Positions 185 to 24,088 of a stretch of 32,346 nt of DNA are shown here, piece by piece. The DNA is from a virus: positions 1 to 32,346 of the IMG/VR virus record IMGVR_UViG_3300020172_001354. One strand, given 5' to 3'. The notes under the pieces were generated by a model. That model ran no database searches, was not told the DNA's origin, and saw nothing but the letters and a program-made list of their open reading frames with translations. Numbering within the stretch: the stretch's first letter is position 1; each line of letters opens with the position of its first letter. The translations under genes were made by a program, and so were the position numbers.

Positions 185-384
185 AAAAACTAGAGCAATA
201 TTGCAAAGTAAGAAATATCAAAGCTACGTTTGTAGATGGTATTTTAATCGACCCTTTGCCTATAGTAAAGTCAAATTATAGAGTACGAAAAGAACCTTAT
301 TTTATTGATTTGGCGGTTAAAAGATACGGATGTCAAACTGTTGTAGATGCAATGTTCAATAAACAAATGACCTTAATCATATGA
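172..384 (+). CDS. Hypothetical protein (70 aa)
   Basis: Small mildly basic protein, no recognised domain. It contains a repeated basic/aromatic pattern (YRVRKEPYFIDLAVKRYG) and ends in an ATGA overlap with the sigma-like gene at 381, so the two are probably co-translated. Position between the replication block and the sigma-like gene suggests an early/middle accessory role; this is inference only. Confidence 0.7.
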   Translation: MQQLEKLEQYCKVRNIKATFVDGILIDPLPIVKSNYRVRKEPYFIDLAVKRYGCQTVVDAMFNKQMTLII

Positions 385-893
385 AGCATTTAGAAAAGTT
401 AGCCAAAAACCATAAAAAGTGGGTGTCAATTGCTAAATCATTTGGAGCTGGTGAAATTTCAGAAGATGTTGTTCAAGATATGTATTTAAAAATATACACA
501 AACAAAAACAACAAAGATATATCAGATGCTTACATTTGGCTTACTTTACGATCAGTTTATATTGATAAGGTTAGAATAGATAATAGAATGCAAAAAGTTA
601 ACTTAGAAGACGTTAAAGGCTTAGTTTCTGAACAAATAGATCAACTGGAATTTCAATCGTTCAAAAAGATTAACACTAAAATAGAAGCCGTTAAATACAA
701 AACACACTATTCAGACGTTATAATACTGAATAACTATTTTGAGAAAGGTTTATCAATGAGAAAAATAGCGGCTAAATACAACATAGCACCCTCAACAGTT
801 TTCAGAAGTATTAAGAAAACAAAGGAGAAAATTAGATTAGAGATAGGTGAAGATTTTGAAGATTATTTAAACAAAGAATTTGAATTGATATAA
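381..893 (+). CDS. Sigma-70-like (ECF-type) transcription factor, probable late regulator
   Basis: A 170-residue protein with the two-part look of a small sigma factor. Residues about 8-67 resemble sigma region 2 (W-x-x-x-A-K-S-F near 14-21, DVVQDMYLKIY at 29-39, then YIWLTLRSVYIDKVR). Residues about 122-147 form a helix-turn-helix like region 4 (LSMRKIAAKYNIAPSTVFRS). Known ECF sigma factors bind core RNA polymerase with region 2 and the -35 element with region 4. It sits just before the terminase genes at the entry to the virion block, where a switch to late transcription would be expected. A role at the ACAAAT/CGTTAA motifs upstream of late genes is inference. It could instead be a terminase-associated DNA-binding protein, which can also look sigma-like. 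Confidence 0.7.
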   Translation: MKHLEKLAKNHKKWVSIAKSFGAGEISEDVVQDMYLKIYTNKNNKDISDAYIWLTLRSVYIDKVRIDNRMQKVNLEDVKGLVSEQIDQLEFQSFKKINTKIEAVKYKTHYSDVIILNNYFEKGLSMRKIAAKYNIAPSTVFRSIKKTKEKIRLEIGEDFEDYLNKEFELI

Positions 894-1125: not shown

Positions 1126-1145
1126 TAAATCAATTTTTTTCAATT

Positions 1146-2604: not shown

Positions 2605-2605
2605 T

Positions 2606-5397: not shown

Positions 5398-5398
5398 T

Positions 5399-7813
5399 AT
5401 GAAAAGACAGGTAGATATTTACATTGAAGGGACAGAACCAAATACATTATTAGGTTACGGTTATAATTACTTAAAGTTAGATTTATTTGATGACGAAAAA
5501 ATAAACATATCTAGTTCGATTCAAAACGTTCAGGATATTTCAAAAGTTTATACAGATTTCAGTCAATCATTTACTGTTCCTGCATCCGATAATAATAATA
5601 AGATATTTGAATACTTTTACCAAAACGACGTTGATAATACAATAGATCATAATTTACGACGTTATGCTTACATTGAAATAGGTACGGTTCCTTTTCGTAC
5701 AGGTAAAATTCAATTAGAGGGTAGTAGTGTTAAAAATGGAAAAGTAGAACATTATAGTATTACATTTTACGGTGACTTAATTTCTTTAAAAGATACTTTT
5801 GGAAATACTAAAATAAATCAGTTAGACTATTCATTTATATCTAATCCTTATACAGGTGCAGCGGTTAAAAGTAGAATAACAGACACTACAACAAATTACG
5901 ATATACGTTACCCATTAATTACTAGCCAAAAGTTATGGAGTTATGCAGATGGAACGAGTACAGATTTAGCGACTTCATTAGGTCGTATAGATTGGAGAGA
6001 GTTATTTCCTGCTATTAAGGTAAGTAAGATATTTGAAGCAATACAAAATGATTTTAATATAACTTTTCAATCTACATTCTTAAATACTGATCGTTTTAAA
6101 AAGTTGTTTTTATGGTGTAAAAATACAAACGATATTGATACAAAAATAAATGGACGTGATTTACCTATTAATACATTTACACAATATAAAGACTATGCAA
6201 ATCGTGATGTTTTTAAAATGTATTATGAAGTAGGTAATCCGCAAGGAGAAGAAGAAAATACATTTTTAAGTTATTCAGAATCATTAAATAGCACTTGGAT
6301 AAATTGTATATTTACTATTGATAATGCGCCAATAATAACGGGCCCACAATGGTTAATTTATATTGACGTATATGTTAATGGAGTATTTTTTAATACTGTT
6401 AATGTAAATACAGCGACATCGAATAGTATTAATATTTATAATTATTACGGATTAGGAAGTAGATGGTTAAAGTTCAAGATTAGAAGTGAACAAAGTATTA
6501 ATATTAAATATAGTATTTCATTAGATAGAAAATATTATGCAACTGTAAATAATGCAAAAGTAATAGTTAACGGAGGTTATGTAATTGCTAAAAATACAAT
6601 AGGTTTAAATTTGTCTAGTAATACAAATAGTGTTTATTCTAACATGCCAGACATAACAGTTTCTGATTTCTTTAGCGGAATATTAAAACAATTTAACTTA
6701 ACTTGTTATTCAGTTGGGATTGATACTTTTCAAATCGAACCACTAGATAATTGGTATTCAAAAGGTGCTATAATTGACGTTACAAAGCATGTAGATGATG
6801 ATACAATTACGGTTGATCGTTTACCATTGTATAAAAATGTTTCGTTATCATATCAAAAAAGTGAGTCATTTACAAATAGACAGTTTGGAGATTTTAATGG
6901 TCGTGAATATGGGGACATATCAAATAATTATCCATACGACGGTGGCGAATATAAAATTGATGTACCTTTTGAAAATTTATTATTTCAGAAATTCAGTACA
7001 ACTCCGTTACAAGTTGGTTATGCTTTAAACGGTGAGCCTGACTTTAAACCGTACGTTCCTAAACCTGTATTATTATATTTAAATGGTGGGACAACAACGG
7101 CAATACGTTTTTACGACGGTACAACAGAAAGCACAATAAACAATGTTGCTTTATTCGGTCAAGACTTGCTTACAAACGGTAATATTTATTCGTTAAATTT
7201 TTCTAGTGACAACTCAACATGGTATAATAAACTAATTGATAATTCATTATTTGCTACTTATTACTTTGGTTATTTATCTAATTTATTTAACACAAAAAAT
7301 AGATTAACAAAACTTAAGGCATATTTTCCAATATCTTTAATTACTTCATTACGTTTAAATGATAGGTTAGTAATTGATAATAAAAGATACATAATTAATA
7401 CTATAAATTCAGACATTACTAGCGGTGAAGTTAGTTTAGAATTGATAAACGATTTTAGAAAGATTTTAACTTCAAACACTCCAAACGTTAACGACTTAGG
7501 CGGAAATTATTCAGTTGAAATATTTGTTCCTAATAATACAGATCCAAACGGTGTAAATGTAACAGGTGGAAGTGGTGTTAATGTTGTAGGTGGGAGCGGT
7601 TTAAACAATGATACTATTGTAGAGTTAATAATTAACGCAAATCCTAATCCTGTAATATACGTAAAACTAGATGACGGTACAATAGTTAGAACGGAGGACG
7701 ACGGTACAATTATTAGAAGCGAAAAAGGAGAGGTTTATAATCCATATTTGGAAATTAATTCAACAGATAATTTTGGCAACGTATTAGATGACACTTTATA
7801 TTTAAATCAATGA
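5399..7813 (+). CDS. Large tail/baseplate protein candidate (804 aa)
   Basis: One of the largest genes, starting one base after the previous stop. The N-terminus (VDIYIEGTEPNTLLGYGY) and the region DISKVYTDFSQSFTVPASDNN look like conserved tail-tip proteins of Bacteroidota phages; the rest is strand-rich. A Gly/Asn/Val segment near residues 710-735 (TGGSGVNVVGGSGLNND) looks like a flexible linker before a short acidic tail containing two near-identical units (KLDDGTIVRTEDDGTIIRSE). A baseplate hub or distal tail function is plausible from size and position, but no defining motif is visible. Confidence 0.5.
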   Translation: MKRQVDIYIEGTEPNTLLGYGYNYLKLDLFDDEKINISSSIQNVQDISKVYTDFSQSFTVPASDNNNKIFEYFYQNDVDNTIDHNLRRYAYIEIGTVPFRTGKIQLEGSSVKNGKVEHYSITFYGDLISLKDTFGNTKINQLDYSFISNPYTGAAVKSRITDTTTNYDIRYPLITSQKLWSYADGTSTDLATSLGRIDWRELFPAIKVSKIFEAIQNDFNITFQSTFLNTDRFKKLFLWCKNTNDIDTKINGRDLPINTFTQYKDYANRDVFKMYYEVGNPQGEEENTFLSYSESLNSTWINCIFTIDNAPIITGPQWLIYIDVYVNGVFFNTVNVNTATSNSINIYNYYGLGSRWLKFKIRSEQSINIKYSISLDRKYYATVNNAKVIVNGGYVIAKNTIGLNLSSNTNSVYSNMPDITVSDFFSGILKQFNLTCYSVGIDTFQIEPLDNWYSKGAIIDVTKHVDDDTITVDRLPLYKNVSLSYQKSESFTNRQFGDFNGREYGDISNNYPYDGGEYKIDVPFENLLFQKFSTTPLQVGYALNGEPDFKPYVPKPVLLYLNGGTTTAIRFYDGTTESTINNVALFGQDLLTNGNIYSLNFSSDNSTWYNKLIDNSLFATYYFGYLSNLFNTKNRLTKLKAYFPISLITSLRLNDRLVIDNKRYIINTINSDITSGEVSLELINDFRKILTSNTPNVNDLGGNYSVEIFVPNNTDPNGVNVTGGSGVNVVGGSGLNNDTIVELIINANPNPVIYVKLDDGTIVRTEDDGTIIRSEKGEVYNPYLEINSTDNFGNVLDDTLYLNQ

Positions 7814-7968
7814 AAAATTTACTACAACTATTATCAATTTCTAATTTTTTTGGTGAGTCTGAAAATATAGATATTGCAAAGGGTATAAATGAAATACCGA
7901 AAACAACAGCGGAAGCTTTTAAGCAAGGAGTTAGAAAAATAAAATCTAGAAAATATGGCAGAAACTAA
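7810..7968 (+). CDS. Small hypothetical protein (52 aa)
   Basis: Begins in an ATGA overlap with the 804-residue gene and ends inside the start of the tape measure gene (overlap 7955-7968). The sequence MKNLLQLLSISNFFGESEN followed by a very basic C-terminus (RKIKSRKYGRN) is compatible with a small structural or coupling peptide. Its fit between two coupled genes, filling an otherwise empty 141-base gap, is the main support. Confidence 0.6.
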   Translation: MKNLLQLLSISNFFGESENIDIAKGINEIPKTTAEAFKQGVRKIKSRKYGRN

Positions 7969-9754
7969 AACAGTTAATTTAAATGTAGAAACTAACTTAG
8001 GTAGTTTAAAAAGCCAATTAAAGCAAGCGCAACGAGATGTTGAATTGTTATCCGAAAAGTTTGGCGCAACGTCTACAGAAGCTATAAACGCAGCACGAAA
8101 AGCAGCACAATTAAAAGATGCAATAGGTGACGCAAAGGCTTTGACGGATGCCTTTAATCCTGATGCTAAATTTAATGCTTTAGGTGGCGCTTTACAAGGT
8201 GTTGCAGGTGGATTTAGTGCGGTGCAGGGTGCAATGGGTTTAATCGGTGTTGAATCTAAGGATGTCGAAGCTACTTTATTGAAAGTTCAAAGTGCTATGG
8301 CTTTGTCGGAGGGTATCAATTCAGTAATGGGAGCGAAAGATGCCTTTACAAACTTAGCCGCTGTAATTGGTAGAACTGCAATAGGTCAAAAAGCTTTAAA
8401 CGTTGTTCAGGTTATAGGAACTACAGTTATGAAGGCTTTGAACTTTGTAATGAAACAAAATCCTATTCTTTTAATAGTATCAGGAATTACGGCAGCCGTT
8501 GCAGCTTTTAAATTCTTTTCAAGTTCTACAGAAACAGCAACGGAGAAAAACGAAAAATTAAACGCAAGTTTAGAAAGACAGGAAAAAGCCTTAGAAAGAA
8601 ACTCCGCAGCTATAAAACAATCAGGTGAAAATAGGTTAAAAATATTAGTTGCTCAGGGTGCAAGTGAAGAAACTATACATAATCAAACATTAAAGAATTT
8701 AAACAACGACGAAAAAGCAAGGCAAAAAAATGTTGATTTCTTAAAAGAAAAATTAGAGGAAAAAAGAGCAATTTTAAAACAAGCTTATATTGATGAAGAT
8801 GAGGAACTAATTAAGTCTGTAAAAAAAGAAATAAGCGAAACAAGAGGAAAATATTTTGAATTAGTAAATCAAAAGAAAAACAATATTACCAATATTAGAG
8901 TAGAAGAAGAAAGCTATAAAACTAAGGTAAAAAAAGACGAAGAAGAAACAACAGCAAAACAACAAGAGGAGAACAAAAAGAAAATAGCTGACAATAAAGC
9001 TAAAAATGCTAAAATTGCAGCAGACAATAAAATCGAAGCTGAAAAACATAAACAAGATTTAATTGATAATGCAAATGCTTTAAATGAAGCACTAGCAGAA
9101 AGTGATTTAGCAAGGCAAAAACAAAAAGAAGAACAAGCCGCAGCAGATGACAAAATGCGAGCAGATGGTTTGGAAAAACTTAAAGAAAATGCAAAGGCAC
9201 AATTAAAGATAAATGAAGAAGAAGCAGCAGCCGCTAAACTTTTACAAGAACAAAAAGTTCAAGCCGTTCAAAGCACACTTTCAACAATTGGAAACTTAGC
9301 CGAACTATTTGCGGGTAAATCTAGAAAACAACAGGAAACAGCTTTTAAAATTCAAAAAGCAGCAAACATAGCAAACGCAACTATAGATACTTATAAGGCT
9401 GCAACGGGTGCTTATTCATCTTTGGCTAGCATCCCCGTAGTTGGTCCCGCTTTAGGAATTGCAGCGGCAGGGGCGGCACTTACTGCAGGTTTATTAAATG
9501 TAAAGAAAATTGCATCTACAAAATTCGATGCAGGTGGCGCTACTGGTGGCGGTGGTGGTTCTAGTACTTCGGGTACTGGTGGCGGTGCAGAACCTCAAAA
9601 CGTTATAACTCCAAACTTTAATATAGTAGGAAACAACGCAACAAATCAATTAGCACAATTACAACAAGCACCAATACAAGCCTATGTAGTAAGTGGTGAA
9701 ATTTCAACTCAACAAAGCTTAGATAGAAACAGATTAAGAAACGCAACGTTATAG
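7955..9754 (+). CDS. Tail tape measure protein
   Basis: 599 residues. Residues 1-60 are helical (NLGSLKSQLKQAQRDVELLS), then an Ala/Gly-rich hydrophobic region (FNALGGALQGVAGGFSAVQG; NPILLIVSGITAAVAAFKF near 168-186), a long Lys/Glu/Ala coiled coil (about 200-430), a second hydrophobic segment (SIPVVGPALGIAAAGAALTA) and a Gly-rich linker before QAYVVSGEISTQQSLDRNR at the end. This is the organisation of tape measure proteins that set siphophage tail length and pass through the membrane. With the usual 0.15 nm per residue, tail length would be near 90 nm (inference). It lies downstream of the chaperone pair as expected, though separated from it by four larger genes. Confidence 0.85.
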   Translation: MAETKTVNLNVETNLGSLKSQLKQAQRDVELLSEKFGATSTEAINAARKAAQLKDAIGDAKALTDAFNPDAKFNALGGALQGVAGGFSAVQGAMGLIGVESKDVEATLLKVQSAMALSEGINSVMGAKDAFTNLAAVIGRTAIGQKALNVVQVIGTTVMKALNFVMKQNPILLIVSGITAAVAAFKFFSSSTETATEKNEKLNASLERQEKALERNSAAIKQSGENRLKILVAQGASEETIHNQTLKNLNNDEKARQKNVDFLKEKLEEKRAILKQAYIDEDEELIKSVKKEISETRGKYFELVNQKKNNITNIRVEEESYKTKVKKDEEETTAKQQEENKKKIADNKAKNAKIAADNKIEAEKHKQDLIDNANALNEALAESDLARQKQKEEQAAADDKMRADGLEKLKENAKAQLKINEEEAAAAKLLQEQKVQAVQSTLSTIGNLAELFAGKSRKQQETAFKIQKAANIANATIDTYKAATGAYSSLASIPVVGPALGIAAAGAALTAGLLNVKKIASTKFDAGGATGGGGGSSTSGTGGGAEPQNVITPNFNIVGNNATNQLAQLQQAPIQAYVVSGEISTQQSLDRNRLRNATL

Positions 9755-9758
9755 AATT

Positions 9759-10349
9759 ATGAAAAAAGAACTACAAACAATTGAACTTACAATTAAAGAC
9801 GAGCTAAAAGAAGGTGTATTCGCAATAAGTTTTGTCGATGCCCCTGCCATAGAAGAAGATTTCATTATGTTAAATGCTTTAAAAGTTGAATTAAAGGTTG
9901 TTAACGACGAAAAAAGGGAGGTTATAGGACTTGCTTTAGTGCCAAATAAGAAGATATTAAGACGTAAAAACGATGTAGAATTTAATATTGAGTTTTCAGA
10001 ACAAACAATTGAGAAAGTTCAGGAGCTTTACATGAAGAATTTACGAGCAAATAACGTTACAATAGACCACGAAAAGCCTGTTAACGGAGTATCTTTAATT
10101 GAAAGTTGGATAGTTGAAGACCCTAAAAATGATAAATCAAATATATATGGCTTAAATGCCGTTAAGGGTGCGTGGGTAGTTAAGATGAAAATCTATAATG
10201 ATGAAGTTTACGAGGGTGTAAAGTTAGGTAAATTCAACGGATTTTCAATAGAAGGAATGTTTGACGGATTAGACCAACTTAAAATGAGTGAACAAACAGA
10301 AGAAGAAAAATTGATTGAAGAAATTAAAGATTTGTTATCTAAATTATGA
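9759..10349 (+). CDS. XkdF-type prohead serine protease
   Basis: 196 residues. Contains VTIDHEKPVNGVSLIESW (H104), then KGAWVVKMKI and KFNGFSIEGMF (S163), matching the spacing of His and Ser in XkdF/S78-like phage proteases. Such enzymes cleave scaffold and capsid proteins during head maturation. The N-terminal line GVFAISFVDAPAIEEDF is also typical of the family. It precedes the scaffold and capsid genes. The acidic C-terminus (EQTEEEKLIEEIKDLL) could act as a short scaffold-like tail. Confidence 0.85.
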   Translation: MKKELQTIELTIKDELKEGVFAISFVDAPAIEEDFIMLNALKVELKVVNDEKREVIGLALVPNKKILRRKNDVEFNIEFSEQTIEKVQELYMKNLRANNVTIDHEKPVNGVSLIESWIVEDPKNDKSNIYGLNAVKGAWVVKMKIYNDEVYEGVKLGKFNGFSIEGMFDGLDQLKMSEQTEEEKLIEEIKDLLSKL

Positions 10350-11755: not shown

Positions 11756-11788
11756 TTGTAAATCAATAAGTTAAGTAAATAAATAGAA

Positions 11789-11811
11789 ACAAATATAAAT
11801 TTAATCGTTAA
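11789..11811 (+). promoter_or_regulatory. Late-unit motif copy 1 (ACAAAT-N11-CGTTAA), possible phage promoter
   Basis: ACAAAT at 11789-11794 and CGTTAA at 11806-11811, six bases before the ATG at 11818. Same pair at nearly the same spacing precedes the genes at 14266 and 17085. It does not match the host TTG/TAnnTTTG form. Could be a phage-specific promoter giving a very short leader, an operator, or an upstream translation enhancer. Confidence 0.45.
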
Positions 11812-11817
11812 AATGGT

Positions 11818-12384
11818 ATGAACAAAGAAGTAAAAAAAGCAATTAAAACATTAAAAACATTTTTGGGAATGGAGACAAAATTAGAGGATATGCCTTTAGC
11901 AGATGGAATGACTACAATTCAGGCGGATATGTTTGAAGTAGGCGAAGCGGTTTTTATCGTCGTTGAAGATGCGGAGCCAGTACCTTTGCCAGTTGGAGAA
12001 TACGAGTTAGCAGATGGTCGTATTTTAGTTGTAGAAGTTGAGGGAGTTATCGCAGCAATTAATGAAGTTGAAGAAGAAGTTGAAGTTGTAGAGCCAACAG
12101 AAGTTCCTGTAGAAGCTGAAAAAGTAGCGCCACAACAAACTACTGCAAAAAAGATTATTAGATCAACGGTTGAGGAGCAACATTTTTCAAAGTTAAATGC
12201 TAAAATTGAAGAATTAGAAGCTAAGATTTTGGAACTTTCAAAAGTTAATGAAGTAGTTGAGGATGTTGTAGAATTGGATGAGGTTAAACCAATTAAGCAC
12301 AACCCTGAAAACAAAAGTAAAAACAATACTCCGTTAACTCCATTAGAACGTTACAGAGAAATTAAAAGTAGGATGAATGGATAA
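11818..12384 (+). CDS. Probable capsid scaffolding protein
   Basis: 188 residues, strongly acidic in the middle (runs of Glu/Val, about residues 70-105) with a helical or coiled-coil C-terminal part (KLNAKIEELEAKILELSK) and a basic C-terminal tail (PLTPLERYREIKSRMNG). The N-terminal half has LPVGEYELADGRILVVEVEG, a pattern common just upstream of capsid genes in Bacteroidota phages. An acidic body plus a basic C-terminal helix beside the capsid gene and downstream of a protease is what a scaffold needs. A minor head protein is the alternative. Confidence 0.6.
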   Translation: MNKEVKKAIKTLKTFLGMETKLEDMPLADGMTTIQADMFEVGEAVFIVVEDAEPVPLPVGEYELADGRILVVEVEGVIAAINEVEEEVEVVEPTEVPVEAEKVAPQQTTAKKIIRSTVEEQHFSKLNAKIEELEAKILELSKVNEVVEDVVELDEVKPIKHNPENKSKNNTPLTPLERYREIKSRMNG

Positions 12385-12544
12385 GTTTGTAAATCCATTT
12401 GAAACAGGTGTTAATTACGATATGTTCTTAAAAGCATTAGGAACAAAAACCGTAAAATTATACTGCAAAGGAAAATTAACCGAAGAGCAAATAGAATGGT
12501 TAATAGAAGATTTGAAACATTATAAATTAAATAAAAACAAATAA
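12377..12544 (+). CDS. Small conserved capsid-adjacent protein (55 aa)
   Basis: Overlaps the scaffold candidate by 8 bases and ends 3 bases before the capsid ATG. Sequence MDKFVNPFETGVNYDMFLKA, then LYCKGKLTEEQIEWLIEDL, suggests a short helical protein. Similar short 'K-x-x-L-T-x-E-Q-I-x-W-L' proteins are, to my recollection, common before the capsid gene in Bacteroidota phages; function unknown. Confidence 0.65.
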   Translation: MDKFVNPFETGVNYDMFLKALGTKTVKLYCKGKLTEEQIEWLIEDLKHYKLNKNK

Positions 12545-12547
12545 ACA

Positions 12548-13564
12548 ATGGCAATTAATTACACAAGTGTGGATTTTCGTGGAAAAGCTGCGGAACCAAT
12601 TTTGGAAGAAGTATTATTCGCAAACAAAACGGTATCAGAGGGATATGTAACTTTTGCAACGGATATCAAAGCAGGAACAATCATCACCGAAGCAGGTGTT
12701 GACGTTACAGCACAGTTATATACTGGTTCAGCTTTGTCTAGTTCAGGTTCTATGAACGTTACAGATAGAATTGTAACTCCTACAAAATTAGAGTACAAAC
12801 AAACTTTCTTACAAGAAGCTTTAAGAGCAGGTCGTTTTGGTCGTTCAATGAACCCAGGAGCGTGGAATATTGAAAGTTCAGAATTTGCATCTACAGTATT
12901 AGCGCAATATGCACCTAATATTTCTCAAGATGCTGAAAATATCTTTTGGGGTGGTATTACTTCGGCTACAAAATCAGCAATTGCAGGTTTAACTCCTGGA
13001 GCTGGTCAAGGTTCTATGACTGCTGCAACTCAAACAGCAGTAGCTTCTATTACTGCAGGTTTAGTGGATGGTGTTTTTGCTAAGGTTTTGTATGACAATT
13101 CAGCTTTAGGTTCTTATATTAAAGTAACAGGAACAACTGTGACGGCTTCAAACATTGCTGCTCAAATGGCACTTATTTATGCTGCTATTCCTGCTGAAAA
13201 TTTAGCAGATACAGTTTCACCAACTGCTATTTATTGCCCAAGAGCATGGAGACAATTAGCGAGAATTGCTAACAACTCTGTAGGTGCAGCACAACAAGTT
13301 AACTTTGAGTTTGACGGATCAGGTGCAGATGCTAAATGTTTCTACAACGGTGTTGAAATGATTTTCGTACCAACTCCTAACAATTTAATGGCATACGCTC
13401 AAAGAAAAGCGGCTATCATGTGGTTAACTGATTTGACTGATGACTTGGTTAAATTTGAGGTTGGAAAACTTACTGCAGATGCAGATGTTCAATTCGTAAG
13501 ATCTATCTACACTTTAGCTGCTCACGTAGGTCAAGCTTCAAAAGGTGTTCTTTACGGAGGATAG
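12548..13564 (+). CDS. Major capsid protein
   Basis: 338 residues, a normal size for HK97-fold capsid proteins of small siphophages. The sequence is Ala/Thr/Gly-rich with a long helical segment (LEYKQTFLQEALRAGRFGRS), a conserved-looking ISQDAENIFWGG region, and a C-terminal strand set (GKLTADADVQFVRSIYTLAA). Codons look more biased and somewhat less AT-rich than in neighbours, as expected for a very highly expressed gene, and a strong intrinsic terminator follows at once. Scaffold and protease genes lie upstream and the tail tube candidate downstream. No large N-terminal delta domain is evident. Confidence 0.8.
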   Translation: MAINYTSVDFRGKAAEPILEEVLFANKTVSEGYVTFATDIKAGTIITEAGVDVTAQLYTGSALSSSGSMNVTDRIVTPTKLEYKQTFLQEALRAGRFGRSMNPGAWNIESSEFASTVLAQYAPNISQDAENIFWGGITSATKSAIAGLTPGAGQGSMTAATQTAVASITAGLVDGVFAKVLYDNSALGSYIKVTGTTVTASNIAAQMALIYAAIPAENLADTVSPTAIYCPRAWRQLARIANNSVGAAQQVNFEFDGSGADAKCFYNGVEMIFVPTPNNLMAYAQRKAAIMWLTDLTDDLVKFEVGKLTADADVQFVRSIYTLAAHVGQASKGVLYGG

Positions 13565-13587
13565 GAATTAAATTAAATTAATAATCT

Positions 13588-13618
13588 AAGGGTGGTGAGA
13601 AATACGCCACCCTTTTTT
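13588..13618 (+). terminator. Intrinsic terminator after the major capsid gene
   Basis: Stem GGGTGGTG (13590-13597) with CGCCACCC (13605-13612), one G-U pair, 7-base loop, extended by two A-T pairs, then six T (13613-13618). It lies 23 bases after the capsid stop and would limit read-through to the tail tube gene and cap the abundant capsid message. Confidence 0.9.
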
Positions 13619-13631
13619 AATACAAAAAATT

Positions 13632-14180
13632 ATGGCTTGTACAATAGCAGCAGGAAGAATAGAACAATGTAAAGATAGTGTATCAGGATTAAAAGCGATA
13701 TACTTTATCAATTACCAAATTGAAAAAAGTCACGTAACATATGATGTTACAAATACAGATTTAATAACGGCGGTTACGAATGTAGATAGTTTGTATAAAT
13801 ACGAGTTAAAATCTACAGAAAATTCATTTGAACAAACTATTAATTCAGACAGAAATAACGGAACTACTTATTTCACTCAGACGTTAAATGTTAAGTTGAA
13901 AAAACAAGACATTGCAACGTCAAAAAATGTGAAATTATTAGCTTATGCACGTCCTCACATAGTAGTTCAAACTAATTCAGGTCAATTCTTTTTAATGGGT
14001 TTAAATCATGGAGCAGATTTGACTGCTGGAGCGCTTAGTTCAGGTGGTGCAATGGCTGATTTTAACGGTTACTCAATGACTTTTGAAGCTATGGAGGAAT
14101 GTTATGCAAACTTTTTAAATGCAGCGACTGAGAGTGCAATGGTTGCGTTATTTACTTCGGCTACTTTAGTAGTAGGATAG
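13632..14180 (+). CDS. Probable major tail (tube) protein
   Basis: 182 residues, strand-rich. Starts MACTIAAGRIEQCKDSVSG; a 'C-T-x-x-A-G-x-x-x-x-C-K-D' start, then TTYFTQTLNVKLKKQD, LLAYARPHIVVQTNSG, FFLMGLNHGADL and GYSMTFEAMEE, a pattern known to me from presumed tail tube proteins of Bacteroidota phages. Located between two strong terminators right after the capsid gene, as befits a very abundant structural protein. Absence of any other tube-sized candidate near the tail genes supports the call. Confidence 0.65.
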   Translation: MACTIAAGRIEQCKDSVSGLKAIYFINYQIEKSHVTYDVTNTDLITAVTNVDSLYKYELKSTENSFEQTINSDRNNGTTYFTQTLNVKLKKQDIATSKNVKLLAYARPHIVVQTNSGQFFLMGLNHGADLTAGALSSGGAMADFNGYSMTFEAMEECYANFLNAATESAMVALFTSATLVVG

Positions 14181-14200
14181 TTAATAAATGATTGATATTA

Positions 14201-14231
14201 AGGCTCTGCAGAAATGTAGAGCTTTTTTTTT
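14201..14231 (+). terminator. Intrinsic terminator after the tail tube gene
   Basis: Stem GCTCTGCA (14203-14210) with TGTAGAGC (14215-14222), one G-U pair, a GAAA tetraloop (14211-14214) and nine T (14223-14231). A textbook strong terminator isolating the tail tube gene from the portal operon. Confidence 0.93.
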
Positions 14232-14235
14232 GAAT

Positions 14236-14259
14236 ACAAATTTTGAAATAATACGTTAA
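14236..14259 (+). promoter_or_regulatory. Late-unit motif copy 2 (ACAAAT-N12-CGTTAA), possible phage promoter
   Basis: ACAAAT at 14236-14241 and CGTTAA at 14254-14259, six bases before the ATG at 14266. It starts only five bases after the T-tract of a strong terminator, exactly where a new promoter is needed to express the portal operon. This placement is the best argument that the motif is a promoter and not merely a translation signal. Confidence 0.5.
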
Positions 14260-14265
14260 ATTGAT

Positions 14266-14685
14266 ATGATTATATTGACAACGGAAACAACGGAGCAAAC
14301 TTTTAATTTTATTCCTAGAAATAAGGACATAGATTTTGACGTTTTCCCTGTTAGAGATGAACAAAGCAATGAAATTGTAAACATACTAGTTAATAATTCA
14401 GCAGGAACGAGCTATAATAAGCTATCAATAACAGATGAACAAACTAATATAACTACTGAATTAGACATTATTAGTAGTTATGCAGGAGAATACTATCATA
14501 CAATTACAAGTGAATTTGAATTAATTGAAGGACACTTTTATATGATACGAGTTTATAGAGATAGTATAACACAAACTAGATTTTTAGGTAAAGTTTTTTG
14601 TACGGATCAAAGTTTACCATACAAAATTACAGATGGAGTTTATAATCAAACAACAAGTGAAAACGATTTTATAATATATGAGTAA
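14266..14685 (+). CDS. Hypothetical virion-block protein (139 aa)
   Basis: First gene after the tail tube terminator. Strand-rich (FNFIPRNKDIDFDVFPVRDE; GHFYMIRVYRDSITQTRFLG), resembling a small beta-sandwich. Its last 8 bases overlap the portal gene start. No catalytic residues or membrane segments. Could be a small tail or head accessory protein made together with the portal. Confidence 0.6.
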   Translation: MIILTTETTEQTFNFIPRNKDIDFDVFPVRDEQSNEIVNILVNNSAGTSYNKLSITDEQTNITTELDIISSYAGEYYHTITSEFELIEGHFYMIRVYRDSITQTRFLGKVFCTDQSLPYKITDGVYNQTTSENDFIIYE

Positions 14686-16549
14686 TATAAAACAAACGCA
14701 AGTTATCGAATTAAGTCAATACACAACTCCCGTAATTACTGAACAACGTAATGAGGGTTGGGTTGACTTTGGTAAAAAGAACGATTACTATCAATTCTTA
14801 ATAGATAGATTTCAAAATTCAGCTACAAATAACGCAGTAATAAATAACATTTGTAAACTTATTTATGGACGTGGAATTACAGCATTAGACGCTAGTAAAA
14901 AACCAATTGATTATGCTAACTTTTTGAGTTTAGTTTCAAGTGATGACATTAAAAGAATAATTAGCGACACTAAAATGTTAGGTCAAAGTGCTATTCAAGT
15001 TCATTACAACGCAAAAAGAGAGGTTGTTAAATTTATGCACTTGCCTGTTAATTTAATTCGTTCAGAAAAGTGCAATGAAGATGGTGAAATATTAGGTTAC
15101 TACTATTCTGACAATTGGCAAAAAACAAGAGAGTATAAGCCTATTAGATACGATGCTTTTGGAACGTCTAAAAGTGAGGTTGAAATTCTAATGATACAGC
15201 CCTATTCAGCAGGAATGAAGTACTATAGTTATGTTGATTATCAAGGCGCACTTGATTACTGTATGTTAGAGGAAAAAGTAAGCGAATACCTTATAAATGA
15301 GGTTAGTAACTCCTTTGCACCTACGACTATCATAAATTTTAATAACGGACAAGCTTCACCAGAACAAAAAAGACAAATATCAGAGGACGTTACAGATAAA
15401 TTAACAGGTTCGACAGGTAAGAAAGTAATTATTTCATTTAACGATAACCCCGAAGCGAAAACAACTATTGATACTATTCAACTTCAAAAGGCTGCAGATC
15501 AATATCAGTATTTAAGTGAAGAAAGTAGAAATAAAATATTAGTAGGTCATAACGTTACAAGTCCATTACTTTTTGGAATAGCAACTTCAACAGGTTTTAG
15601 TTCAAATGCAGATGAGTTAAAGAACAGTGCTATATTATTTGACAATATGGTAATAAGACCATACCAGGAATTAATAGTTGAGGCATTCGATAAAATACTA
15701 GCAGTAAATAACATTAGTTTAAACCTTGAATTCGTACCGTTACAACCTTTAGATAGTTCAGGAGAACTTGCAAGCGGTGGATCTAAAAGAATTATTGACG
15801 GTATTAATAGTTTATCTCCATTAGTTGCTAATAAAGTACTTGAAAGTATGACAGCAAATGAGATACGTGGATTAGTTGGTTTAAATCCCGAACAAGGTGG
15901 AAGCGATTTACAGCCTTCAACAACTACGACACTATCAGAAATATTCGATTTTGAAAGTTTAGGAGAAGAAATAAACGATGAATGGCTTTTAGTAGATAGT
16001 CGTAAAGTTGATTACGATTTGGAGGATGAATTAGATAATGAATTAGAAAACTTAATACCTAAAAAATCATTTTTAGCTAAACTAGTAAGTACAGGAACTG
16101 CGAGAGGTAACGCAAAAAGTGAACAAGACGGAAAAATCTTTAAAACTAGATATCGTTATGCAGGTGATAAACCTGGTGAACGTGCTTTTTGTGTTAAAAT
16201 GTCGCAACAAAATAAAGTATATCGTAAAGAAGATATTATTCAAATGAGTAATACTGATTTGGGAGATAGCTATACTAATAAAGATGGCAGAGTTATAGGT
16301 TGGGGGCCAAATGGAGCTACAAAATTCGACAGATTTATTTGGAAAGGCGGAGGTAACTGTCACCATTACTGGGTTAGAGAGACTTATTTAAAGAAATCAG
16401 ATGTAAATTCTCCACTAGCGAAAAAATATACAGCAGCAGAAAGTCGTAAAATGGGGGAAATTGCACCCGTAAATGATTCAAGAGTTTATCAAAAACCTAT
16501 AGACATGCCTTATAACGGATTTTTACCAACAAATAAACGCTTTAAATAA
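14678..16549 (+). CDS. Portal protein with C-terminal Cys/His domain
   Basis: 623 residues. Residues 1 to about 420 fit a portal: VDFGKKNDYYQFLIDRF near the start, a helical SATNNAVINNICKLIYG segment, VKFMHLPVNLIRSEK, QLQKAADQYQYLSEESRNKI, and SSNADELKNSAILFDNMVI before an acidic stretch. Portals form the ring through which DNA enters the head. The C-terminal part (about 475-575) is a separate module: RYRYAGDKPGERAFCVKM, YRKEDIIQMS, then FDRFIWKGGGNCHHYWVRE. This Cys/His-rich domain resembles the extra domain carried by some head morphogenesis proteins; it may bind metal or act after ejection. The gene is unusual in lying about 12 kb downstream of terL. Confidence 0.8.
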   Translation: MSNIKQTQVIELSQYTTPVITEQRNEGWVDFGKKNDYYQFLIDRFQNSATNNAVINNICKLIYGRGITALDASKKPIDYANFLSLVSSDDIKRIISDTKMLGQSAIQVHYNAKREVVKFMHLPVNLIRSEKCNEDGEILGYYYSDNWQKTREYKPIRYDAFGTSKSEVEILMIQPYSAGMKYYSYVDYQGALDYCMLEEKVSEYLINEVSNSFAPTTIINFNNGQASPEQKRQISEDVTDKLTGSTGKKVIISFNDNPEAKTTIDTIQLQKAADQYQYLSEESRNKILVGHNVTSPLLFGIATSTGFSSNADELKNSAILFDNMVIRPYQELIVEAFDKILAVNNISLNLEFVPLQPLDSSGELASGGSKRIIDGINSLSPLVANKVLESMTANEIRGLVGLNPEQGGSDLQPSTTTTLSEIFDFESLGEEINDEWLLVDSRKVDYDLEDELDNELENLIPKKSFLAKLVSTGTARGNAKSEQDGKIFKTRYRYAGDKPGERAFCVKMSQQNKVYRKEDIIQMSNTDLGDSYTNKDGRVIGWGPNGATKFDRFIWKGGGNCHHYWVRETYLKKSDVNSPLAKKYTAAESRKMGEIAPVNDSRVYQKPIDMPYNGFLPTNKRFK

Positions 16550-17052
16550 TGGCTAAAGTACTTTTAATATCAAACAAAGACCTTGTTAAGTTCACCGCTT
16601 TAAATGGTAATATTGATCCTGACAAAGTAATGCACTTCATATCTATAGCGCAGGATATTTATTTGCAGCAATACTTAGGTAGTAAACTATTAGCAAAACT
16701 ACTTACTGATACTGCAAACAATACTTTGACAAGTGACTATAGCAACTTAATTGAAGTATATTTAAAACCTATGTTAATTCACTTTAGTGCGGTTGAATTA
16801 TATCCATTTATAGCCTATTCAATATCGAATAAAGGAGTTTACAAACATAGTGCAGAAAATAGCGAAGTAGTTAGCAAAAATGAAGTAGATTATTTAGTTG
16901 AGAAAGAACGAGTGATAGCGGAGAATTACGCACAAAGGTTTTTAAATTATATGAAATATAATCATCCTTTATTTCCTGAATATTACGATGTTTATAACGA
17001 AGACATAGCGCCTAAATTCAAAACTGACTTAACAAGTTGGTATCTTGATTAA
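16549..17052 (+). CDS. Head-tail connector candidate (DUF6712-like)
   Basis: 167 residues, largely helical, starting on the last base of the portal stop. The line LVKFTALNGNIDPDKVMHFI, then IAQDIYLQQYLGSKL and YLKPMLIHFSAVELYPFIAY, matches the pattern of Bacteroidota phage adaptor proteins annotated as DUF6712 (gp6-like helical connectors). Such proteins dock beneath the portal. Direct adjacency to the portal supports this. Confidence 0.65.
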   Translation: MAKVLLISNKDLVKFTALNGNIDPDKVMHFISIAQDIYLQQYLGSKLLAKLLTDTANNTLTSDYSNLIEVYLKPMLIHFSAVELYPFIAYSISNKGVYKHSAENSEVVSKNEVDYLVEKERVIAENYAQRFLNYMKYNHPLFPEYYDVYNEDIAPKFKTDLTSWYLD

Positions 17053-17054
17053 AT

Positions 17055-17077
17055 ACAAATATTAATAAATACGTTAA
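17055..17077 (+). promoter_or_regulatory. Late-unit motif copy 3 (ACAAAT-N11-CGTTAA), possible phage promoter
   Basis: ACAAAT at 17055-17060 and CGTTAA at 17072-17077, seven bases before the ATG at 17085. The gap is only 32 bases and is almost fully occupied by the motif. It would start the fibre/lysis transcript. See copies at 11789 and 14236. Confidence 0.45.
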
Positions 17078-17084
17078 TTATATA

Positions 17085-17540
17085 ATGGCTTTAGAGAAAA
17101 GAATATCAGAACTTACAGCAAAAACAGGCGCTTTAGAAGATACGGATTTAATCTTAATATCAGACTACAACGGTGTGGATTATGATACAAAATCCGTTAC
17201 AGGAGCGCAAATAAAACCATACAAAACTTTATTATTAAATATTTCACAAAGTGGAACTTCTGCACCTACAATTAATTCAAGTTATTCAGAATTAACAAGT
17301 AATTTTTATTGTCAAAGAAATACAAATGGTAATTATTATATTCAGTTATCTAGTCTTGAATTTTTAGATAATAAAACATTTATTCAAGTAACATTAGGAG
17401 GAAGTGCATCCTTGACAAATATGTATGCTATTAAAGTTACAGAAGATAGAATAAACTTTTACAGTTCAAATTCTAACACAGGAACTTTGACAGATGGATT
17501 ATTAAACGAAGCACAAATTGAAATTAAAATTATAAAATAA
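17085..17540 (+). CDS. Short fibre-like virion protein with shared N-terminal anchor
   Basis: 151 residues. Residues 1-43 (KRISELTAKTGALEDTDLIL ... YDTKSVTGAQI) are closely similar to the N-terminus of the next, much longer fibre protein, so both probably plug into the same virion site. The C-terminal 100 residues are a strand-rich Ser/Asn/Thr domain (SSYSELTSNFYCQRNTNGNY) that may be a small trimerising or capping module. The stop overlaps the next start by one base (TAATG), indicating co-expression. Confidence 0.6.
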   Translation: MALEKRISELTAKTGALEDTDLILISDYNGVDYDTKSVTGAQIKPYKTLLLNISQSGTSAPTINSSYSELTSNFYCQRNTNGNYYIQLSSLEFLDNKTFIQVTLGGSASLTNMYAIKVTEDRINFYSSNSNTGTLTDGLLNEAQIEIKIIK

Positions 17541-20158
17541 TGGCTATAGTTAAAAAAATATCGGAGTTAACTCCAAAAGGTTCGGCGCTTGCTAATACCG
17601 ATTTATTAATCGTTGGTGTTGACAATGGAACTGATTACGATTTAAAGAGTGTAACAGGGGCGCAAGTGTTAGGTAATGTGGTTAGTCAAACGATTACGGA
17701 TGGGGTTACAACAAAATCACCTTCTGAAAATGCGGTTTTTGATGCTTTGGCGTTAAAAGTTGACAAGGTAACAGGAAGTAGATTAATTACAAGCGCAGAA
17801 GCTACTATTTTAGGTAATACAAGCGGAACAAATACAGGGGATCAAAACTTACAACAAGTTACTGATAAGGGAGCAATAACAACAAATACATTTTCAAGCC
17901 AAAATGCTACTTTTCAAAGTTCATTAGCACCTTCTCAAATTCAATCTCAAAGGTTATCAAATTCAAAAAGAAGTTCTTTAAATGCGGATGGTTACATATC
18001 ATTTAGCACAACTGGAATTTCAGAAGCTACAATCAAAGCAACTAATATTTTAAACGATGTTACTTTAGAAGTACCTAATAAATCAGTTGGTAGTTATACA
18101 ATTGCGACAATTTCTGATTTAACTAATCAAGTGCCTTATACGGGCGCAACTACAAACGTAAATTTAGGAGAATTTGAACTAAAAGCGGGACAATTAAGCT
18201 TAGATATTACTCCAACAGGAACGGCTGCAGTAGGTACAACACGTTGGAACGATGCTTTAGGAAGTTCAGAAACTACATTAAAAGGGGGGTCAGTTATTAT
18301 TAAAAACGGTGTTGACTTAGTAGCGAGAGTAGTAAACAAAGTTACTCCAAACACTACATTAACAAAAGCTAGTTATCAAGTTGTTAAAGTTAGCGGAGCG
18401 CAAGGTCAACGTTTAGCGGTTAACTTAGCACAGGCAAACAATGACAATAATAGTGCTGATACTTTAGGGATAGTTTGTGAAACAATACCAACTAATCAGG
18501 AAGGATTTATAATTACAGTAGGTCAATTAGAAAACGTTAATACGACAGGAAGTTTACAAAGTGAAACGTGGGTTGATGGTGATGTTTTGTATTTATCCCC
18601 AACAACAGCTGGAAAAATAACTAATATTAAACCAACAGGAGCAACGGGTCATATAGTTATATTAGGATATGTTGAGTATGCTCATGCAGTAAATGGAAAA
18701 ATTTACGTTAAAATTATGAACGGTTGGGAGTTAGATGAACTTCACAATGTTTCAATTTCAAATCCATTAGATAAACAACTATTATCTTACGAAAATTCAA
18801 CCTCACTTTGGAAAAACAAAAGTGTTACAACTGCTGATATTGCAGATTCAACAAATAAACGTTATGTAACTGATGCAAATTTAACAACTATAGGAAATAC
18901 AAGCGGAACGAATACAGGTGATCAGATTCTTTCAGATGCAACGTTAACAACAACTGATATAACAACAAATAACGTATCAACTACTAAACATGGTTTTGCA
19001 CCAAAAGCACCTAACAATACAACTCAATTTTTAAGAGGGGACGGAACATGGGCAACTCCTGCAGCGGGTGGTTTAACATTCTTTACAGAAGCGCAAAGTA
19101 CGGCAGCACCAAATGCAACTGTAAATGTAGATAGTTTAACGGCGGTTGCTAGTACAACGGATGCAGATTTTTCAATCATAGCAAAAGGAACTGGAGCAAT
19201 TTTGGCAAGTATTCCAAACAATATCGCAACTGTACCTAATGTTGGGGGTAATAAGAGAGGTCAATATGCTTTAGATTTACAACACTTTGGACAAATAAAT
19301 GTAGGAACAGAGGTTGCAAGTGGTAATTACTCATCCATTACTGCTGGAAATAGAAATACGGCAAGCGGTCAATACTCATTTATAGGCTCAGGTTTTAGAA
19401 ATACAGCTTCAAATGATTATTCAGTTATTAATAGCGGTCAAATTAATAATGCTAACGGACTTTATTCTTTTATTGGAACGGGACAAAGCAATACCGCATC
19501 TAGTACATACGATACTGTTTTAAATGGTTTTGGTAATACATCTTCTGGCGGTTATTCTTTAAGTGGTGGTCTTCAATGTACAAATACAGGAGCTAGAGCT
19601 TTAGTATATGGTGAAAATAATACTGTTAGCGGTAGGTCAGCTGCTTCAATTAACCAAGAAAATACAGCTTCTTCTGATTATTCAAATGCTAGAGGTTTAA
19701 GAGCGACAACTTTCACAACATGGGGTAAATGGGTCTTAGGCGGTGGCGGTGCAACATTAGGCTCAGCACAAAAAGGAATGTTAGTTTTGAGTGTTAGAAC
19801 TACAAATAACACTCCTACAGAAATATCATTTGGAGCAAATGGAGTTGATGCAAGGGCAAATTTAACGTGTCAAGATAACAACGGAATGAGAGTTAAGGGT
19901 TCTATAATAGCAAAACAAAGCGGTTCGACAAATATAGCAGCATGGGATTTCGACTATGTAATAGTTAGAGGTGTTGGTGTTGGTACTACTTCGGTTGTAG
20001 TTTCAAATGTAAATGTTGTAACTAATATACCAGTATGGGGAACTCCAACAATTACAGCGGACACAGTTAGGGGTTATGCTTCAATTAAAGTAATAGGAGT
20101 AACAGCTAATATACAATGGACCGCAACAATAGAATCAACAGAGGTGATTTACGCATAA
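17540..20158 (+). CDS. Tail fibre / receptor-binding protein with YadA-like head repeats
   Basis: 872 residues, the largest gene. N-terminal anchor (KKISELTPKGSALANTDLLI ... SVTGAQV, 1-43) shared with the preceding protein. GNTSGTNTGDQ occurs twice (about 92-102 and 452-462), each opening a new segment. Residues about 595-715 contain roughly 15-residue repeats (SFIGSGFRNTASNDY-like units with Gly-x-x-NTAS) as in YadA/Hep_Hag heads, which fold as left-handed beta-rolls in trimeric surface adhesins. A Gly-rich joint (GGGGATLG) leads to a C-terminal strand-rich domain that probably contacts the host. Expected to form a homotrimer at the tail tip and determine host range. Confidence 0.85.
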   Translation: MAIVKKISELTPKGSALANTDLLIVGVDNGTDYDLKSVTGAQVLGNVVSQTITDGVTTKSPSENAVFDALALKVDKVTGSRLITSAEATILGNTSGTNTGDQNLQQVTDKGAITTNTFSSQNATFQSSLAPSQIQSQRLSNSKRSSLNADGYISFSTTGISEATIKATNILNDVTLEVPNKSVGSYTIATISDLTNQVPYTGATTNVNLGEFELKAGQLSLDITPTGTAAVGTTRWNDALGSSETTLKGGSVIIKNGVDLVARVVNKVTPNTTLTKASYQVVKVSGAQGQRLAVNLAQANNDNNSADTLGIVCETIPTNQEGFIITVGQLENVNTTGSLQSETWVDGDVLYLSPTTAGKITNIKPTGATGHIVILGYVEYAHAVNGKIYVKIMNGWELDELHNVSISNPLDKQLLSYENSTSLWKNKSVTTADIADSTNKRYVTDANLTTIGNTSGTNTGDQILSDATLTTTDITTNNVSTTKHGFAPKAPNNTTQFLRGDGTWATPAAGGLTFFTEAQSTAAPNATVNVDSLTAVASTTDADFSIIAKGTGAILASIPNNIATVPNVGGNKRGQYALDLQHFGQINVGTEVASGNYSSITAGNRNTASGQYSFIGSGFRNTASNDYSVINSGQINNANGLYSFIGTGQSNTASSTYDTVLNGFGNTSSGGYSLSGGLQCTNTGARALVYGENNTVSGRSAASINQENTASSDYSNARGLRATTFTTWGKWVLGGGGATLGSAQKGMLVLSVRTTNNTPTEISFGANGVDARANLTCQDNNGMRVKGSIIAKQSGSTNIAAWDFDYVIVRGVGVGTTSVVVSNVNVVTNIPVWGTPTITADTVRGYASIKVIGVTANIQWTATIESTEVIYA

Positions 20159-20428: not shown

Positions 20429-21039
20429 TGAATCAAATTAAATCAATTTTAACCGAGTTAAGAAAAATGAAAAATATAGCACTAATCCTATTATTTTTGG
20501 GGTTGGTGCTTTATTCATACCAGCCACTAATTACTAAGGTAGTTGAAAAAAAGATTGAAAAAGACCCCGTAAAAGAAGATATAAACAACAATGTCCTAAT
20601 TCAACAAATGTTAAATGATTTGATGAATAAATATAAAGCGGATAGGGCATATATATTTCAATTCTCTAACAATGTGATGTATTACGATGGAACTCACAGA
20701 AATCATACTTCGATGTCATTTGAAGTATGCACAAACGGAGTAAGTTATGAATCTAAAAACTTACAAAAGTTACCAGTTAGTTTATTTCCTGTATTTTTAC
20801 AAGAGATTATGTTAGATAAATGTAGATATACGGATATAGATAGTTTGCATGAAACTTCGACACGAATATCGTTAAAAAAACAAGGTATTAAAAGTGTTGT
20901 TATTGCGCCTTATTTTAAAGAAGGTCATTTTGTTGCCTATATAGGTTTAGACTATGTTAAGCAAAATAATTTTTTAGACTTTAATTATTACGAGTTTAAA
21001 TCTAAAACTAATGAAATAGGTAATATACTTTGTCAATAA
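20428..21039 (+). CDS. Membrane-anchored GAF-like domain protein
   Basis: 203 residues: a basic N-terminus, one strong transmembrane segment (about 16-33, IALILLFLGLVLYSYQ), a charged linker, and a soluble alpha/beta domain (57-200) with KADRAYIFQFSNNVMYYDGT, SMSFEVCTNGVSYESK, GIKSVVIAPYFKEGHFVAYI. This order of motifs ('R-x-Y-I-F-Q-F', then a helix, then 'I-x-x-x-x-x-x-P-Y-F-x-x-G-x-x-x-A-Y-I-G') is GAF-like, a fold used for sensing small ligands. The start at 20428 is chosen for overlap with the upstream stop; an internal ATG (residue 14) would also keep the membrane segment. Located directly upstream of holin and endolysin, it may sense cell state or tune lysis or exclusion; inference. Confidence 0.65.
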   Translation: MNQIKSILTELRKMKNIALILLFLGLVLYSYQPLITKVVEKKIEKDPVKEDINNNVLIQQMLNDLMNKYKADRAYIFQFSNNVMYYDGTHRNHTSMSFEVCTNGVSYESKNLQKLPVSLFPVFLQEIMLDKCRYTDIDSLHETSTRISLKKQGIKSVVIAPYFKEGHFVAYIGLDYVKQNNFLDFNYYEFKSKTNEIGNILCQ

Positions 21040-21062
21040 TTACTATATTTAAATAAAAAAAT

Positions 21063-21251
21063 ATGAGAGAGATAAAAAAAAGATGGAATAGCGAAACTCC
21101 GCACTTCTTTAAGAAAGTGATTAATTTCGGAATAATAGCGGGAATAGTTGGAAGCGGTTTAATAACATTACCAGCAACGGTTACAATAGGAACAATTTTG
21201 GTAACAGTAGGAGCAACCGCAACGGCAATCGCTAAATTGACAAAGATATGA
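21063..21251 (+). CDS. Putative holin
   Basis: 62 residues. A basic, aromatic N-terminus (REIKKRWNSETPHFFKKV) followed by two hydrophobic segments (about 20-36 and 41-58, rich in Gly/Ala/Ile/Thr) joined by a short LPAT turn, and a basic end (KLTKI). Size, two membrane segments and an ATGA overlap with the endolysin at 21248 fit a class II holin, which lets endolysin reach the cell wall. Similar KRW-x-S-x-TP-x-FFKK proteins precede endolysins in Bacteroidota phages, from memory. Confidence 0.75.
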   Translation: MREIKKRWNSETPHFFKKVINFGIIAGIVGSGLITLPATVTIGTILVTVGATATAIAKLTKI

Positions 21252-21655
21252 TTAGCAAACATATATCATTAAAAGAAGCTACATTTAGCGCAACGGCTAC
21301 AAGGTTAGGCATAGATAACCAACCAACTGCAGAACATTTAATTTGTATGAAGTTAGTGGCTGAAAAATGCTTTGAACCTTTAAGAAATTGGTACGGTAAG
21401 CCTATTAAAATAAATTCATTTTATAGAGGTTTAAAGCTTAATAAAGCGGTCAAAGGTAGTTTGTCAAGCCAACATTGTAAAGGTGAAGCTATCGACATGG
21501 ATGCAGGTTCAATTGAAGAAAATAAGAAGCTTTTTGATTGGTGCAAAGCTAATTTAGAATTTGATCAGTTAATCAATGAGTATAACTTTTCATGGGTTCA
21601 TATATCTTACACAGAAAAAAAACCAAATAGAAAGCAAGTATTAATTATTAAATGA
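21248..21655 (+). CDS. Endolysin, M15 family zinc peptidase
   Basis: 135 residues of the Peptidase_M15_3 type. Zinc ligands are visible as SSQHCKGEAIDMD (H76, D83) and SWVHIS (H118), with E111 placed as the likely catalytic Glu; INSFYRG near 55-61 is also typical. It cleaves peptide cross-links in peptidoglycan for lysis. No signal peptide, so it needs the holin. Last gene of the late block; a terminator follows 45 bases downstream. Confidence 0.92.
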   Translation: MISKHISLKEATFSATATRLGIDNQPTAEHLICMKLVAEKCFEPLRNWYGKPIKINSFYRGLKLNKAVKGSLSSQHCKGEAIDMDAGSIEENKKLFDWCKANLEFDQLINEYNFSWVHISYTEKKPNRKQVLIIK

Positions 21656-21700
21656 TTATATTTACATATTCATAATAATTTAGTTTTAGTTAACAGTTGG

Positions 21701-21733
21701 AAATGAGGTAATTAAAAACTATCTCATTTTTTT
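21701..21733 (+). terminator. Intrinsic terminator ending the late block
   Basis: Stem AAATGAGGTA (21701-21710) with TATCTCATTT (21720-21729), one G-U pair, 9-base loop; T-tract to 21733. Separates lysis genes from the first early-type promoter. Confidence 0.88.
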
Positions 21734-21756
21734 ATTAAAATAATTTAAAAATACTA

Positions 21757-21786
21757 TTGTATATTTAAAAATAATATGTATCTTTG
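21757..21786 (+). promoter_or_regulatory. Early promoter P1, Flavobacterium-type
   Basis: TTG at 21757-21759, 19-base spacer, TATCTTTG at 21779-21786: an exact match to the Bacteroidota form TTG-N17-23-TAnnTTTG. Expected transcription start near 21792, about 20 bases before the ATG at 21813. Shares extended sequence (TTGTATATTTA at the left, TTTGTA at the right) with P2 at 24059. Confidence 0.88.
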
Positions 21787-21812
21787 TAAAAACAAACTAA
21801 AACAAATTAATT

Positions 21813-22016
21813 ATGGAAAGAACAATCAATTACAGAAATGTTGAACTAAGATGTGAATTTAGGATTGACAAATATGAGCCAGCTACTTATTGGCAACCTG
21901 AAGAGGGGGGAACTATTTACGATTTATTCGTGTATGTTCAAGATACTGAAATATTAGATATTTTAGGAAAAAAACAAATAGAAGATATTGAAGATTTAAT
22001 TTACGAGCAGTTATGA
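21813..22016 (+). CDS. Small conserved hypothetical protein (67 aa)
   Basis: First gene of the P1 operon. Strand-rich N-terminal half (INYRNVELRCEFRI), then EPATYWQPEEGGTIYDLFVY and an acidic helical C-terminus (KKQIEDIEDLIYEQL). The 'P-A-x-Y-x-x-P-E-x-G-G' pattern recurs in small early proteins of many phages, but its function is not known. ATGA overlap with the ERF gene implies coupling to the recombination module. Confidence 0.75.
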   Translation: MERTINYRNVELRCEFRIDKYEPATYWQPEEGGTIYDLFVYVQDTEILDILGKKQIEDIEDLIYEQL

Positions 22017-24058: not shown

Positions 24059-24088
24059 TTGTATATTTATAAAAGAGTTGTATATTTG
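24059..24088 (+). promoter_or_regulatory. Early promoter P2, Flavobacterium-type
   Basis: TTG at 24059-24061, 19-base spacer, TATATTTG at 24081-24088. Same spacing and extended sequence as P1, so both are probably read together by host RNA polymerase. Expected start near 24094, leaving a leader of about 34 bases before the ATG at 24128. Confidence 0.88.

Follow-up and report, generated by a model that had tools for sequence, protein, structure and literature searches.

Predicted ECF-type promoters abutting late start codons, and a matching phage sigma factor, in a family of flavobacterial phages

T4 gp55 and SPO1 gp28 and gp33-34 are phage late sigma factors that act on the host core RNA polymerase, and the late promoters of T4 consist of a -10 element only (TATAAATA). 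Another phage-borne protein, Xpf of PBSX, is said to control the late operon, reportedly from work by McDonnell et al. in 1994; to our knowledge, neither leaderless late promoters nor switching of the -10 element has been described for that system. Xpf is a group IV sigma-like positive control factor of a defective Bacillus subtilis prophage, with sigma2 and sigma4 domains only (PMC10141391), and phage sigmas that turn the host polymerase to late genes are covered by a survey of jumbo phages (PMC7824862). For bacterial extracytoplasmic function (ECF) sigma factors, the open complex of Mycobacterium tuberculosis sigma-H has GGAAYA as its -35 element (-34 to -29) and G-11 T-10 T-9 as its -10 element, with contacts from N88 to T-10, from N92 to the -11 pair and from K96/R99 to the backbone at -14 (PMC6411747).

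Here we describe three elements in a phage genome that, judging from sequence comparison, are very probably ECF-type promoters of late operons, read by a phage sigma factor (ORF 381-893) and predicted to give leaderless late mRNAs. Like those of T4 and SPO1, this sigma factor would redirect the host core polymerase to late genes, but its architecture and its promoters are different, and Xpf belongs to another host phylum and another type of phage. The protein resembles bacterial ECF sigma factors (M. tuberculosis sigma-H, Escherichia coli sigma-E and B. subtilis SigW) in having regions 2 and 4 only, a length of around 170 residues, a -35 AAC and a -10 GTT. In contrast to these, it is phage-encoded and very divergent in sequence, and its predicted promoters lie directly against the start codon and belong to structural operons of the phage; their AAC-to-GTT spacing also falls 1-2 bp short of that in the sigma-H promoter, which counts against the assignment. 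Phage late sigma factors and ECF sigma factors were known already; what the sequences support here is a putative phage ECF sigma factor with promoters that abut start codons and carry matched -10 variants. A search of the openly accessible journal literature returned no account of these promoters.

The window, by which we mean the whole 32,346-nt stretch of DNA that was analysed, has 30% G+C (70% A+T) and encodes, among others, terminase, tail tape measure and portal. Its ends (1-91 and 32256-32346) are identical over 91 bp, and it is thus a circular genome, complete and overlapping at its ends, although the record itself gives no completeness. A scan of the window found three exact copies of ACAAAT-N11/12-CGTTAA, all on the forward strand (11789-11811, 14236-14259 and 17055-17077), with spacers of 11, 12 and 11 bases (17, 18 and 17 from start to start); they end 6, 6 and 7 bases upstream of the ATGs at 11818, 14266 and 17085. 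The opposite strand holds no copy, and a scan with the reversed pattern also found none. The first-pass annotation had given these copies, spacings and distances exactly, and its remarks that they occupy three of the few late-block gaps above 30 bp (there are five) and that one, at 14236, directly follows a strong terminator are likewise borne out. The late units, the terminator and the predicted promoters are as follows.

11818..14180, forward strand: late unit A, with ORFs 11818-12384, 12377-12544, 12548-13564 (probable capsid, from position only) and 13632-14180
14266..17052, forward strand: late unit B, with ORF 14266-14685, portal 14678-16549 and ORF 16549-17052
17085..20158, forward strand: first genes of late unit C, ORFs 17085-17540 and 17540-20158
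14200..14232, forward strand: intrinsic terminator, an 11-bp stem (14200-14225) and a T tract, with a fold z of -3.25, directly upstream of promoter B
11787..11817, forward strand: predicted late promoter A, before ORF 11818-12384; -35-like AAACAAAT with AAC at 11788-11790, CGTT at 11806-11809, G at -11 from the ATG; kept upstream of homologues
14234..14265, forward strand: predicted late promoter B, before ORF 14266-14685 and portal 14678-16549; ATACAAAT ... CGTTAA, G at -11; orthologous site in 53 loci (33 non-redundant)
17053..17084, forward strand: predicted late promoter C, before ORF 17085-17540; ATACAAAT ... CGTTAA, G at -12; kept in close relatives only
9727..9758, forward strand: weak candidate fourth site, before ORF 9759-10349; AAACAGAT ... 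ACGTTATAG

That the G of promoter C lies at -12 and not at -11 counts against the reading that we prefer. The candidate fourth site overlaps the 3' end of the upstream coding sequence, and its conservation is therefore partly due to coding; other phages also have a site before the start of the gene homologous to ORF 9759-10349. It also counts against it that no clear site precedes the tail and terminase genes of the window (895-9754), whose expression must then depend on read-through or on some other signal. A site that some close relatives have before ORF 2606 is absent from the window. A pattern match at 20048 and the best matches to the position weight matrix inside coding frames were judged to be chance. 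A second strong terminator (13588-13620), which is also conserved in front of the homologues of the gene that follows, precedes ORF 13632-14180, with no ECF-type site after it.

The proposed reader is encoded early in the window.

381..893, forward strand: ECF-type sigma factor of 170 residues; residues ~1-73 form region 2 and ~92-160 region 4, with D62 and R65 as the predicted readers of the -10 element

On its own, the protein falls below the Pfam gathering cut-offs for sigma regions 2 and 4, and members of its family give weak matches to Sigma70_r2, Sigma70_r4_2 and Sigma70_ECF. A profile built from 14 family sequences has as its best PDB matches SigL (E = 0.0027) and SigW (E = 0.0067), with both domains spanned, so that the detected homology to ECF sigma factors extends across the two domains. 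The AlphaFold model (mean pLDDT 75.8, relative placement of the domains uncertain) has seven Foldseek matches at E ≤ 0.001: five named ECF sigma factors (sigma-H and sigma-E) and two chains from initiation complexes of M. tuberculosis, for which the structure title leaves the sigma factor unnamed. Model residues 1-73 superpose on the complex of sigma-E region 2 with -10 DNA (4lup; 73 residues, 2.1 Å) and residues 92-160 on that of region 4 with -35 DNA (2h27; 69 residues, 2.0 Å). As modelled, the product of ORF 381-893 is a divergent member of the ECF (group IV) sigma factors and consists of two domains, regions 2 and 4, with no region 1.1, 1.2 or 3. Homologues that are 32-97% identical occur in 17 of 20 related records, the remaining three being fragments; a scan of bacterial genomes with the sigma profile gave no confirmed relative and no prophage forms. 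Among viral contigs, more than 500 stretches encode such a sigma factor.

Comparison with other phages shows that the element is conserved in place. Portal homologues in IMG/VR led to 80 related loci, and in 53 of these, at 29-94% protein identity, the two-block element stands before the gene that precedes the portal gene and ends about 6 bases before its ATG; in most of these homologues of promoter B, the T-rich tail of a terminator precedes the site. Close relatives retain the sites at the same places. The model learned from 33 non-redundant upstream regions is [A/C]AACAA[A/T]...[A/T][C/A]GTT[T/A], and in each of the 33 the second block lies 12-14 bases from the ATG; the hexamers ACAAAT and CGTTAA are not natural units, and the family-wide core is AACAA plus [C/A]GTT[A/T]. 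Under a simple AAC/XGTT rule that was free to choose other positions, G falls at -11 (A of the ATG being +1) in 86 of 92 distinct sites, and 90 of the 92 have 15-16 bases from the C of AAC to the base preceding GTT (AAC ... [C/A/G]GTT). The sites thus have a -35 AAC and a -10 GTT-type element at fixed spacing, as promoters cognate to ECF sigma factors do; the exception is a subclass with AATT (5/37), which departs at -11. Scans of whole contigs found extra sites before other gene starts, bearing each phage's own variant of the second block. A scan of viral contigs with ACAAAT-N11-CGTTAA-N6-ATG returned 108 stretches, many of them probably chance given the length of the pattern. One unrelated contig fetched by the motif alone (L170) has one such site and a sigma homologue of 24% identity, and is a lead only.

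The second block varies among phages in step with the sigma factor. Sites within one phage share its own -10 variant, and the variant tracks sigma region 2; a seed-by-target table is near block-diagonal, with each pre-portal block detecting more sites within its own clade and seldom outside it. Among 37 non-redundant sigma/site pairs, CGTT occurs with D62 and R65 (13/13 versus 0/24; Fisher P = 2.8 × 10−10, with kinship ignored), AGTT or GGTT with K65 (19/19), and AATT with R or N at position 65 and no D62 (5/5). The -12 base shows its strongest excess association with column 65, and the rule that relates residues to CGTT agrees in 56 of 56 rows. On a tree of an unrelated gene (homologues of ORF 2606), supported branches carry at least five changes of the CGTT label, and five of five independent contrasts agree with the residues; with five contrasts (P = 0.0625), this control alone is only suggestive. 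In two sets of phages (G008/G012 and G010/G011), the C halves of the sigma factors share 82-88% identity and the N halves 26-31%, and the sites of these phages keep CAACAA while the -10 block has switched from AAGTTTATA to TCGTTTTAA. Results for a residue code on the -35 side were weak and confounded by ancestry. In our own alignment of the RN..ID..R motifs, guided by the profile match, sigma-H N88, I91 and N92 correspond to S58, I61 and D62 of the window, with R65 three residues beyond D62 along the helix; the co-varying residues thus occupy the positions expected to read the -11 and -12 bases. An earlier suggestion that a sigma-like protein might read these sites gains support from this match, from the per-phage co-variation and from the co-occurrence of gene and sites; the ECF architecture of the promoters and the ECF identity of the sigma factor had gone unrecognized and are added here. 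We lean, with reservations, towards the broader proposal that region-2 positions 62 and 65 largely set -10 specificity in a large family of flavobacterial phages with leaderless structural mRNAs, and that this specificity has switched repeatedly in nature, partly by swaps of the whole of region 2, with the promoters changing to match.

Because Bacteroidota have many ECF sigma factors (PMC7366714), the promoters might be read by a host alternative (ECF) sigma factor while the phage protein does something else. We consider this very unlikely, as it does not predict a -10 variant that differs among close phages and follows each phage's own region 2, swaps included. It is slightly less probable still that the elements act in RNA as signals for translation initiation in hosts that lack a Shine–Dalgarno sequence. 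The fixed distance to the ATG would suit such a role, as would the reliance of Flavobacterium johnsoniae initiation on upstream A bases such as A-3 (PMC6847099); however, the element occurs only at the first genes of units, the regions upstream of ORFs 12548, 13632 and 16549 and of their homologues being without it, and neither the near-constant 15-16 bp between the blocks nor a second block that tracks a sigma residue is expected of a ribosome signal.

Two spaced blocks could also form a protein site, in which case an activator or repressor of the phage would bind the elements as operators and act on an unseen promoter farther upstream. The blocks are neither a repeat nor a palindrome, are positioned at -30 and -10 from the ATG, and have their bases accounted for by the match to the sigma factor. 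Nor is there a host box to act on: no TAnnTTTG occurs within 80 bases upstream of ORFs 11818, 14266 and 17085, which sets these regions apart from Bacteroidota housekeeping promoters (TTTG/TAnnTTTG). The early region does have intergenic host-type promoters (TTG-N19-TAnnTTTG at 21757-21786 and 24059-24088) that leave leaders, the next ATG being 26 and 39 bases on, and the contrast drawn between these and the late sites in the first-pass annotation was correct. We regard the operator reading as less probable than either of the preceding two. An origin by chance, or by the recent duplication of a spacer rich in A+T, is refuted by the conservation of orthologous positions across large distances and by the count of the exact pattern (ACAAAT-N9-14-CGTTAA: 3 copies versus 0.11 expected from dinucleotide shuffles, with at least 3 in 0 of 100 shuffles), even in a genome of 70% A+T in which relaxed patterns are as frequent as in shuffles. 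With up to 3 mismatches, one-genome scans of the window give counts at chance level, and the proof lies in conservation and position, not in a single-genome motif scan.

The cultured Nonlabens phages P12024S and P12024L (Inhavirus) provide an independent case for the phage-encoded reader, as the association of LRS..ID..R with CGTT was recorded before they were inspected and P12024S lay outside the training set. They share with the window phage a portal protein (32% identical), a profile-matched sigma factor and AAAACAAA...CGTTAA sites, but, unlike it, they are in culture. The family profile retrieves the P12024S sigma factor at E = 1 × 10−12, and this protein (gp33) reads NLYMDELRR, with D and R at both key positions and N, not S, at 58. 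In P12024S, seven sites follow the pattern AAAACAAA...CGTTA[A/C], six of them strict and one a variant; each stands immediately in front of a late ATG, 5-6 nt upstream, the ATGs at 3031, 5412, 21280, 23961, 25201 and 26802 among them, and there are no such sites on its other strand. The sigma genes of the two phages (L328 gp33, 20595-21074; L329 gp35, 21405-21884) are annotated as hypothetical, 'containing Sigma-70 region 2', and the promoters appear to have been undescribed so far. With the window sigma factor as query, cultured phages gave only weak P12024 matches, and a nucleotide search of cultured phages with the window gave none. The flavobacterial phages 11b and P12002S have no sigma factor by the family profile, and 0 and 1 pattern matches, respectively, about as expected by chance.

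In the mechanism that we propose, the two-domain ECF sigma factor would be made early and bind the host core RNA polymerase; its region 4 would recognize AACAA some 30 bp upstream, and region 2 would read and melt [C/A]GTT at -12 to -9. As GTT lies at -11 to -9 in most sites, as in sigma-H, transcription late in infection is predicted to start at or beside the ATG. The choice of start can shift by a base or two, so the predicted leader is 0-2 bases, and mRNAs for the head, portal and downstream structural genes would be leaderless, a prediction made from position. The terminator upstream of promoter B may isolate its unit from upstream transcription. The initial view of the elements as non-host late promoters with leaderless or nearly leaderless transcripts is favoured by their conservation and fixed ATG distance in divergent phages.

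The region-2 swaps provide natural domain-swap data on how an ECF sigma factor selects the -12 and -11 bases and, if the proposal is true, amount to a natural, readable specificity code for such a factor. Cultured P12024S and P12024L make the late-promoter reading directly testable. Leaderless late mRNAs are predicted in hosts that have no Shine–Dalgarno signal and whose own mRNAs mostly have leaders, as do most transcripts of F. johnsoniae (PMC6847099). For a family of mostly uncultured flavobacterial phages, the sigma factor and its promoters would constitute a defined late-transcription switch.
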